NCBI GenBank assembly: GCA_021778805.1
Contig: JAJYBV010000015.1
Coordinates: 1 to 48,885 of the forward strand
DNA length: 48,885 nt
Direction of reading: 5' to 3'
Origin: Chloroflexota bacterium
Lineage (GTDB): Bacteria > Chloroflexota > Ktedonobacteria > Ktedonobacterales > JACDGC01
Shown piece after piece: positions 9,421 through 34,106 of this stretch. Position 1 is the stretch's first letter. Every line of letters begins with the position of its first letter. The notes under the pieces are model-generated. The model saw nothing but the letters and a program-made list of their open reading frames with translations. It did not search any database and was not told the DNA's origin. The position numbers and the translations under genes were made by a program.

Positions 9421-10680
9421 TTGAGGAATCTGCTTGGTCCGATCCTGTTTCCGGTCAGGAAGAGAGAGAAATTTGGGAGCGAGCAAAAAGGATGCTGTTC
9501 CTTGTGCGACCACAGAGGGAACGGCTTTGCGCAGGATGTTATAGCTCCCATTCACATCGGCGTTGAGGCTTCGTCCCGTTGCTGAGACAAACTTGCCTCG
9601 TTTTGGCCGTTTGCCGACATACTGGTCATGATGCCCCAGCGGTTCGAGATCCAAAAAACTACATTTGGAGGTATAACTTTCGTTCACCAAAATCGTTTGA
9701 ATGCCCACCAGCGTTGCTTTGTATTGCAGCATCGCAATGAAACGAGCATGCGGAATAAAGACAAACGATTGATTGTTCTTCTTCCCCATCTCCACTCGTT
9801 GCTTCCAAAAATCGTTTTTACCTACCACAAGTGTGCCCACTTGTTCCTGAACCAACAGATCAATAATAGCTCGGCTGGCTGCATGCAGGTAGGAATTAAT
9901 GGAGCGGGTTCGTTTATCCGCCAGATGATCCAGGTATCGGGAGTTTTCCTGTTTGCCTGGAAGATGGGCCTGTCGCTGTGCGCGAACCTTGTTGTAGTGC
10001 TGGTTGAGGCTTTTCAGGGGACGACCGTTAACAAGAAGAGGCCGGAAACCTGGCTTGTTTGTTGTTATCGCCGCAAGATTATTTACCCCAATATCCATAC
10101 TCGCTACAAGATTCGACTGTACCTCAGCCTGCTGCTCCTGCGCTTCATAAATGACTTCCACAACATAATGCGTGGACTTGGGAACGATTCGCACCATCGC
10201 GATTCGATCCCGTGGCTGCTTGGTTTGCACCACAATATCCAGACCGGAAGGAAGAATTAAACCAGCATTCTTCTTATTCCGGCTGAAGGCTTTATCTTCA
10301 TACGACAGCAGATTGCGGCCATCTTTGTCCAGATAATTGGGCAGTTTGGGATGTCCCAGAAATTTGGCTGGATTCTCTTCATAGGCTTGACAGGCAACAA
10401 AGTAGCTGCTCCAGGCGGCAAACACCTGCTGAATGACCCAATTGGAGACTTTAGCCGGAAGAGCACGGTATTCAGGAGTGTCCTTCACCGCTTGATAGAC
10501 TTCAGACAGCGAGAGCATCTTTTTCTCATGAATAAAAGCTTGCCTCTTCCTATATAAAACCACATTATAGAGATTTTTACTGGCAAATGCAGCAGGATCA
10601 ATGAATTTCCAGCGTGGATCAGTTTTGTCAATCCGATGTTGTTCCACTAATTGCATCCTGGCTGCCCTCGCTTTCTTCAC
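9400..10680 (-). CDS. tnpB: TnpB-family RNA-guided nuclease of an IS607-type element
   Basis: 426 residues. The N-terminal helical region (MQLVEQHRIDKTDPRW...) belongs to the IS607/IS605 TnpB group. RuvC motif I is MDIGVNN with D196 and motif III is NADVNGSYN with D375. The usual RuvC-II glutamate position reads VVGKND (K288), while a Glu is present at 334 in NESYTSKCS, so the catalytic Glu may be relocated; such rearranged sites have been described in TnpB. The zinc-finger region keeps only one Cys (C340) and a His pair. The first codon is GTG at 10680; an in-frame stop lies just upstream; ATG 10656 is an alternative start. The gene overlaps the end of tnpA. No frameshift or stop is seen. 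Confidence 0.85.
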   Translation of the reverse strand: MKKARAARMQLVEQHRIDKTDPRWKFIDPAAFASKNLYNVVLYRKRQAFIHEKKMLSLSEVYQAVKDTPEYRALPAKVSNWVIQQVFAAWSSYFVACQAYEENPAKFLGHPKLPNYLDKDGRNLLSYEDKAFSRNKKNAGLILPSGLDIVVQTKQPRDRIAMVRIVPKSTHYVVEVIYEAQEQQAEVQSNLVASMDIGVNNLAAITTNKPGFRPLLVNGRPLKSLNQHYNKVRAQRQAHLPGKQENSRYLDHLADKRTRSINSYLHAASRAIIDLLVQEQVGTLVVGKNDFWKQRVEMGKKNNQSFVFIPHARFIAMLQYKATLVGIQTILVNESYTSKCSFLDLEPLGHHDQYVGKRPKRGKFVSATGRSLNADVNGSYNILRKAVPSVVAQGTASFLLAPKFLSLPDRKQDRTKQIPQKKLLSK

Positions 10681-32468: not shown

Positions 32469-32899
32469 GAAACTTTCCCTTCTTCAAAAACGTCCCGTTG
32501 TTCCCTTTTTCAGAGCAAAATATTTACTTACAGTATCGTGATTTATTTCTCAGCATTTTCTCAGATTTCAGTATAGCATAAGATACAAATCGGTTAAAAG
32601 CACATATTACTTAATATTTTCACTTCTTCGAGCAAACATAAAGCAGTATTTATTCTCTTATTTAAAACGATTCAGCAGGTCAAGAAGTATCTTCATTACG
32701 TTTTTGTTACATATTTCACAATTGAATGCCACAAATTTCAAAAAAATATGGAGCATTCATCCAATTGATAAACGCAGCCACCGAGTTTCAATTGGCTTTT
32801 CTCAGCAAAAATCTGCCATTTTGTGTTACAGAAAGCCCGTAAAGTCGCTGTGCCTTGAGGTATGCAAATGAAAGGGCTTGCGTTGGTGTGAGCCAGTGG
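32469..32899. other. A+T-rich spacer before the structured RNA
   Basis: 430 bp with no gene that I can support; about the first 300 bp are very A+T-rich. The segment 32788-32899 is richer in G+C and may be part of the RNA-bearing unit. Confidence 0.4.
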
Positions 32900-32928
32900 T
32901 TGTTTTCCGGCTGAATCTGTGTTATACT
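32900..32928 (+). promoter_or_regulatory. candidate promoter of the structured RNA
   Basis: TTGTTT (32900-32905), 17 nt, TATACT (32923-32928). The -10 hexamer and spacing match the two tRNA promoters in this window, and initiation would fall at the 5' base of the RNA's first stem. The TATACT could alternatively lie inside a guide segment. Confidence 0.4.
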
Positions 32929-32932
32929 TGGG

Positions 32933-33154
32933 ATGAAGTCTGGCGAAAAGAGGCGCAAGCCGAAGCCATATCGTCCTACCGGACGATGAGACTTCATTTT
33001 ATACTTTTTTCTGTACCGTAGGGCATACGGTAACAGGCCAGTCTTGCACTGGCGTAACGCTTGGGGACAGATGGGCCACTGGCAGTGCGACGTAAGCCAC
33101 ACTGATATGTCCACTGGCTGAACCAAGAATCTGCTACGGCTTTCGCCTATGCAG
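32933..33154 (+). ncRNA. stand-alone HEARO / IscB-type omega RNA (putative)
   Basis: About 220 nt of dense secondary structure. A 9-bp stem (ATGAAGTCT 32933-32941, AGACTTCAT 32989-32997) encloses a GGC-GCAA-GCC tetraloop hairpin (32952-32961) and ATCGTCC/GGACGAT (32970-32987). Then CTGTACCGTA/TACGGTAACAG (33011-33036), GCCAGT/ACTGGC (33037-33053), GGACA/TGTCC and CAGTG/CACTG pairings, and a 3' part GGCTGAACCAAGAATC followed by a hairpin (33131-33154). The last block and layout recall the HEARO RNA, now known as the guide RNA of IscB; in Ktedonobacter such RNAs often stand alone. No IscB, TnpB or HNH gene lies here. The assignment is from memory of the motif. A 126-codon minus-strand frame covering this segment is a shadow. 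Confidence 0.6.
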
Positions 33155-33200
33155 AGAGCAAGATACATTCGTTATAGCCATAAACGCCGGAGGCTGTTCT

Positions 33201-34106
33201 ATGAATGACGATATTGCCCGCGCAGATGCGCCATTTCGCTTTACTATCGGATCGCTGAATGTGTACATTCTGAACGATGGAGTTTTCCGCCTGGATGGCG
33301 GTGGTATGTTTGGCAGAGTGCCCAAAGTTTTATGGGAAAAAGTGGTGACGCCAGACCATTTGAATCGTGCGCCGCTTTCCATGAATAGTATGCTGTTTGA
33401 AGAAAACGGCAAACTTATTTTAATGGAGACCGGTTACGGAGATAAATTATCCGCCAAAGAATATGAAGCTTTTGGGTTAACTCGGCCGCAAGGGTCTTTA
33501 TTAGATCAATTGGCAAAAATCGGGGTAAAACCAGAAGATATTTCAATCGTCATCAACACCCATTTGCATGGTGACCACGCCGGATGGAATACCCGTTTTA
33601 AAGATGGCGACCCCACCGCAGGAGTAGTTCCCACGTTTCCCAACGCTATATACATCACGCAAAAGCTGGAATGGGAACATGCTGCGCATCCAACCGAGCT
33701 TACTGCGCCGGGCTATCCTTCAAACAACTTCCATGTTTTAAAGGAAACCGGAATGTTGCATTTAATTGAGGGTGAAACGCGCGTCAGTCCGACGATTTTG
33801 CTAACTCCAACACCTGGGCACACAATCGGGCACCAAAGTGTATGGGTAGAATCGGGAATGGCTGCGGCGTTGTTTACCGGCGACGCCGCAGTTATGGGAG
33901 TGCATTTAGAGCGCCTGAATTGGGTTAGCGGTGTAGATAATTTTCCGATACAAAGCGTAGAAACCAAACGCGCATTAGTTGAAGAAGCGCTGAAACGCCA
34001 AGCTTCGGTTGTTGTAACACACCACCCGTTTCCCGGCCTTGGGATACTGCACCGTGAGGAAGGTCAGCGCCGCGCAGTTTTCCAAGAAATTACAAAACAG
34101 TCATAA
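33201..34106 (+). CDS. MBL-fold metallo-hydrolase (lactonase-like)
   Basis: 301 residues. Metallo-beta-lactamase fold with the zinc motif HLHGDH at 121-126, then a His in TPGHTIGHQSV, an Asp in FTGDAAV and a C-terminal His in VVTHHPF. The domain order resembles AHL-lactonase and related hydrolases, but substrate is not determined. GGAGG 7 nt before the ATG fixes the start. The 3' end overlaps the convergent nnr gene by 17 nt. The RNA described above lies directly upstream on the same strand and ends 46 nt before the ATG. Confidence 0.88.
   Translation: MNDDIARADAPFRFTIGSLNVYILNDGVFRLDGGGMFGRVPKVLWEKVVTPDHLNRAPLSMNSMLFEENGKLILMETGYGDKLSAKEYEAFGLTRPQGSLLDQLAKIGVKPEDISIVINTHLHGDHAGWNTRFKDGDPTAGVVPTFPNAIYITQKLEWEHAAHPTELTAPGYPSNNFHVLKETGMLHLIEGETRVSPTILLTPTPGHTIGHQSVWVESGMAAALFTGDAAVMGVHLERLNWVSGVDNFPIQSVETKRALVEEALKRQASVVVTHHPFPGLGILHREEGQRRAVFQEITKQS

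Follow-up and report, generated by a model that had tools for sequence, protein, structure and literature searches.

What is the structured RNA that sits upstream of an MBL-fold hydrolase gene, with no nuclease gene beside it, at 32900–33200 of the window analysed here, a 48,885 nt stretch of a Ktedonobacterales (Chloroflexota) contig? The initial annotation took it for a stand-alone HEARO/IscB-type omega RNA that is guided by the bases preceding its first stem, and that is either used in trans by an IscB encoded elsewhere or has been co-opted, possibly to regulate the hydrolase. Nuclease-less IscB omega RNAs have already been reported, and TnpB reRNAs are normally cut out of the tnpB mRNA.

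The RNA is not of the HEARO type

The segment contains stems over approximately 220 nt, GGCTGAACCAAGAATC and a terminal hairpin, and the RNA from 32933 to 33165 folds better than shuffled sequences (z = -3.24; 1 of 200 shuffles as good). No tandem repeat was found there. As had been noted, no nuclease gene adjoins it; within the window, the closest TnpB is a TnpB-like gene of another family at approximately 9.5 kb (9535–9750, minus strand, with a 427 aa open frame).

HEARO RNAs (RF02033) resemble this RNA in being OMEGA guide RNAs that can occur as separate ncRNAs, but their guide is at the 5′ end, where the guide predicted here is at the 3′ end. When the segment was used to query Rfam, no family was matched at gathering thresholds and none plausibly at E ≤ 10, and related solo and parent loci also had no Rfam match. 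As the RF02033 model found five HEARO loci elsewhere in the same genome, three of them above the curated cut-off, and none at the segment, we take the segment to be rejected by the model. True HEARO RNAs, some apparently without an adjoining IscB, are therefore present in this genome, but the resemblance of the segment to them is superficial and, given that it is homologous to the 3′ ends of TnpB and to the ends of IS608, as described below, the stand-alone HEARO/IscB reading, with its guide at the 5′ end, has next to no chance of being correct. The five HEARO loci (L101–L105) are at G000:C28, C142:11802–12041, C57:41–280, C42:360–599 and C18:19053–19292. A full IscB-like ORF follows the one in C28, and an IscB-like start is found at the contig end in C42. 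No IscB-like ORF was found within the flanks examined at C142, C57 and C18, so the idea of a nuclease-less HEARO RNA may apply there.

A mobile element with IS608-type ends

A search for further copies, as the initial annotation had proposed, found six in the 3.25 Mb assembly of the organism's own genome. The six-copy alignment, the coordinates of the copies and an empty site in G001, a genome of the same genus, revealed a 332 nt element of the IS200/IS605 (IS608-like) type at 32830–33161, which is more extensive than the segment first reported. This element, its parts and the flanking features that are given window coordinates below are on the plus strand. The copies are 332–336 nt, too short for a transposase, and contain no protein gene.

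IS608, from Helicobacter pylori, has the cleavage sites TTAC and TCAA and the guide tetranucleotides AAAG and GAAT (PMC5934647). By the IS608 rule, the TTAC at 32826–32829 is the target tetranucleotide and left cleavage site (C_L), equivalent to the transposon-adjacent motif (TAM) of TnpB. Five of the six copies have TTAC immediately upstream, and the C142 copy has TCATC. Alignment of these MITEs with parent elements placed the left end, made up of the AAAG guide tetranucleotide and a subterminal imperfect palindrome, at 32832–32876. AAAG and a hairpin are found near the left end of the aligned copies, with AACAG instead in the C66 copy. The right end (33127–33161) includes GAAT, a hairpin and a decayed cleavage site; the aligned copies finish with GAATC-hairpin-GAGTGTCAA, beyond which their flanks are unique. 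The hairpins of the left and right ends resemble one another. Sister copies have AAAG as G_L, GAAT as G_R and TCAA as C_R. The window copy, which is approximately 16% diverged from them, departs from this set at C_R, where decay has left GCAA in place of GTGTCAA.

Comparison of genomes shows that the element has moved. The orthologous MBL gene in G001 is 96% identical to the one in the window and has no insertion upstream. The empty site reads ...TTTTGTGCTAC|GATACAATCGTT... in G001 and ...TTTTGTGTTAC[332 nt]GATACATTCGTT... in the window, and G001 has CTAC where the window has TTAC, beside GATACA. The empty-site comparison covered the window copy and those in C49, C66 and C29, with C142 and C73 left out, and as the flanks of the latter three copies also adjoin in G001 without the element, there are four empty orthologous sites including that of the window. 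No target duplication was found at the insertions in this comparison, and none is expected for elements moved by Y1 transposases. The C66 copy (L003, G000:C66:18025–18360) interrupts the last codons of an ORF that is uninterrupted in its G001 orthologue.

The hydrolase gene (33201–34106 in the ORF list) is outside the element. It is close downstream, as had been recognized, with its ATG at 33201, 39 nt past the true element end at 33161. The proximity raises the suggestion that the element was co-opted in cis to drive or regulate this gene; the promoter-like sequence of the element points at the hydrolase, and a search for a terminator-like site beyond the right-end hairpin found none. However, the remaining copies of the element sit elsewhere, and as the insertion is absent from the orthologous locus of the congener, we reject regulation of the hydrolase as very improbable.

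On sequence criteria, the segment is an IS608-like (IS200/IS605) non-autonomous, PATE-like element. It has the same cleavage sites and guide tetranucleotides as IS608, and likewise makes no target duplication (PMC5934647), but it lacks tnpA and a complete tnpB. In common with the PATEs, or palindrome-associated transposable elements, of Haloquadratum (PMC3119063) and Halanaerobium (PMC7290912), which are internal deletion derivatives, it has IS605-type ends with subterminal palindromes, lacks a transposase gene and makes no target duplication.

Origin from a TnpB-encoding element

Elements of the parent type were found in other genomes. One of them, L122 (G004:C91), is complete, encodes both TnpA and TnpB and has related ends, and in L062 (G010:C197) the same left and right ends surround a 398 aa TnpB. 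G005 and G003, which belong to the same family as the window organism, have TnpB copies whose right end (L094) or left end (L093) matches. In the window element, the 3′ half can be aligned to the tnpB 3′ end and right end, and comparison with L122 and L062 revealed a remnant of the last 27 codons and stop of tnpB at 33012–33095, in frame with the C-terminus of the L122 TnpB. These codons read CTVGHTVTGQSCTGVTLGDRWATGSAT and a stop; the L122 counterpart is RTLRHRETATATVVETLGDRGASGSQA and a stop. We conclude that the element is an internal-deletion (PATE-like) derivative that has kept the right-end RNA of TnpB.

When the own genome was searched for a TnpB of this family, none was found at E ≤ 1e-40 in the 93%-complete assembly, and the one complete TnpA that was detected shares only 37% identity with its L122 counterpart. 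Repeats tend to drop out of MAGs. A second set of TnpB 3′-end pieces, with frames of 75–103 aa and a different right end, is present in the same genome (L030–L033; G000:C7, C121, C61 and C97). The pieces in C61 and C97 have approximately 90 nt of new upstream sequence in common, which suggests another family of nuclease-less guide-RNA elements.

The retained scaffold and its predicted guide

The TnpB-type reRNA scaffold, which includes the right end, was placed at 33011–33161 by a match to covariance model R2 and by covariation, and is homologous to the tnpB 3′ end and right end. In an alignment of 13 TnpB-less copies from four genomes, 61 base pairs are supported, in 22 of which both partners change. 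For percentage paired, number of double-change pairs, number of such cells and covariation score, 0 of 500 shuffles attained the value observed; for the number of pair types, 18 of 500 did. Slid controls collapsed. Together with the folding result, this bears out the structured RNA of the initial annotation and the covariation that it expected among homologues. In 48 sequences that include TnpB parents, double changes are seen in 36 of 44 scaffold pairs. The window copy retains 59 of the 61 pairs, and its differences are rarer in paired columns (10/122) than in the remainder (27/130; Fisher p = 0.007). Comparative sequence evidence thus shows that the RNA structure is conserved. In a tree of scaffolds, the stand-alone scaffolds group with TnpB scaffolds of the same family and, because they cluster with local TnpB copies, some of the covariation may come from the parents via recombination.

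A reRNA takes its guide from the DNA that flanks the element on the 3′ side, over approximately 16 nt (PMC8612924). With the segment identified as the right-end RNA of a TnpB, within an IS608-like element, its predicted guide is found in the 3′ flank and not in the bases before the first stem, where it had been placed. Applied to this copy, the rule that Karvelis et al. gave for reRNAs (PMC8612924) predicts the 16 nt guide GATACATTCGTTATAG (33162–33177). The predicted TAM and guide are preserved, at the sequence level only, at the G001 empty site. The RNA is like the ISDra2-type reRNA in comprising the tnpB 3′ end and right end and in having its predicted guide in the 3′ flank, beside a TAM-like target (PMC8612924), but differs in having no tnpB in cis and an extra 5′ domain. 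The TAM of ISDra2 is TTGAT, and that predicted here is TTAC. Assignment of this segment to the nuclease-less guide RNAs of the OMEGA/reRNA class is therefore upheld, with TnpB replacing HEARO/IscB as the type.

An added 5′ domain and a promoter-like sequence

A 63 nt covarying RNA domain precedes the scaffold at 32935–32997 (models R1 and R3, and covariation), and consists of an outer stem, a GA/GA-flanked, kink-turn-like hairpin and a second hairpin. It is seen in TnpB-less elements of two Ktedonobacterales families. Covariance-model matches in the family of the window organism number 6 in its own genome, 1 in G001, 12 in G003, 11 in G004 and 3 in G005; a further family of the order has 11 in G006, 1 in G043 and 2 in G045, and there is one marginal match in G036. 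In G006, G043 and G045, the domain lies approximately 20 nt upstream of a scaffold match. No TnpB beyond a short C-terminal remnant was found at any 5′-domain locus examined, in flanks that reached 1.5 kb if the contig was long enough. The named matches are in Ktedonobacteria MAGs and in one labelled Proteobacteria; the latter, Proteobacteria bacterium Centralia_MAG_675 (L127, L130 and L131, in JAJPKG01 contigs), is probably mislabelled.

The outer stem occurs as GAAGUC/GACUUC, GAAGCC/GGCUUC, GAAACC/GGUUUC and GAAGCU/AGCUUC. A long-range pairing of the first stem was proposed by RNAalifold, but only the local GAAGYC/GRCUUC stem covaries across families, and we therefore dropped the former. A kink-turn is made up of a C-stem, a 3 nt loop, tandem G.A pairs and an NC-stem. 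In most copies, GA flanks the hairpin on both sides, and the likeness to a kink-turn is tentatively drawn for these; departures from it are seen in the length of the loop and in a U.U pair of some lineages. A source for the 5′ domain in the TnpB/TnpA parents was considered and rejected, as its sequence has no match in those examined.

Upstream of the domain, the TTGTTT-17-TATACT sequence previously pointed out is indeed present at 32900–32928, with its -10 box ending 6 nt before the domain. On its own, the window sequence is unremarkable, with 8/12 matches and 15% of shuffles as good; the case for a promoter is one of comparison across relatives, in which the spacing and position are conserved. 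Most copies in family f1 have a 17 nt spacer and a -10 box ending 6–7 nt before the domain, even where the upstream DNA is unrelated. Among the f1 boxes are TTGTTT-17-TATACT (own genome), TTGACA-17-TATACT (G005), TTGATT-17-TAGAAT (G004) and TTGCAA-17-TATAAT (G001). The promoter match is weak in G043, G045 and some f1 copies. G006 has TTGACA-17-TATACT or TAGACT 14 nt upstream of the domain, and this is found in most of ten near-identical copies, which indicate recent spread. A relic in G001 (L204 441–503, in C51) has TTGCAA-17-TATAAT and the 5′ domain but no recognizable reRNA scaffold.

These features bear on whether the RNA has any function. PATEs are a published class (PMC3119063, PMC7290912), and this one could be an inert internal-deletion derivative that moves by its ends alone, with a functionless scaffold retained as a consequence of the need for a right end. 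The scaffold does overlap the right end, the Halanaerobium PATE has likewise retained a piece of tnpB, its last 58 nt, along with the whole right end (PMC7290912), and the own genome has no cognate TnpB at the threshold given above. However, the last hairpin alone suffices for right-end function. An inert element also leaves unexplained the promoter, the compensatory changes in the 5′ domain, and the presence in two families of a domain that is missing from the parents examined. The promoter-like sequence and the covarying domain before the retained reRNA, in two families, are what set these elements apart from known PATEs. We regard an inert PATE as unlikely, though it is to be taken seriously.

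A probable guide-RNA gene that may act in trans

We instead favour, as the probable reading, a promoter-driven guide-RNA gene within a PATE-like element that would rely on the TnpA and TnpB of other elements, with the window copy an orphaned relic. Transcription, use by TnpB and the role of the 5′ domain are what we infer from the features described above. A sigma-70-type promoter would transcribe a self-contained RNA made up of the 5′ domain, the reRNA scaffold and approximately 16–20 nt of the 3′ flank as guide. Excision of the protein-less element would be performed by the TnpA of a resident IS608-like element, and the presence or absence of the element in congeners and its amplification in G006 bear on such mobilization in trans only indirectly. 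A TnpB of the same resident lineage would load the stand-alone RNA in trans and cut the sealed donor joint (TTAC plus guide), whereupon repair off the sister copy would restore the element. Stand-alone elements lack a tnpB mRNA, for which the promoter and structured 5′ domain could substitute; the domain probably takes over from that mRNA by providing a stable and defined 5′ end for the RNA, or binds a protein. The use in trans put forward by the initial annotation would thus be the most plausible function, with TnpB and not IscB as the partner enzyme. As neither cognate enzyme was found in the genome and the right cleavage site has decayed, the window copy is probably an orphaned relic.

The 5′ domain might conversely allow the RNA to bind TnpB without cutting, as a decoy or antagonist that protects the host or competes with the parent. 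It is confined to TnpB-less elements, in most of which the scaffold and guide position are otherwise intact, but the recent amplification in G006 suits a selfish element at least equally well, and we consider a decoy improbable.

Beyond this copy, there is close to an even chance that a mobile lineage in at least two Ktedonobacterales families has given the TnpB guide an RNA gene of its own, with a promoter and a new conserved 5′ domain, and ensures its inheritance by borrowing TnpB in trans from other elements. PATEs and TnpB reRNAs are both known, and one published PATE-like sequence retains the tnpB 3′ end and right end (PMC7290912). A stand-alone TnpB guide RNA that is driven by a promoter and carries an additional conserved domain did not turn up in the open-access literature searched. 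For biochemistry, the 5′ domain offers a new RNA target of compact size, and it might be of use in stabilizing reRNAs. If the reading that we favour is correct, TnpB guides would act in trans, parted from their nuclease, which would bear on the origin of separate Cas12 guide-RNA loci, and protein-less elements would have a route by which to escape loss at excision.
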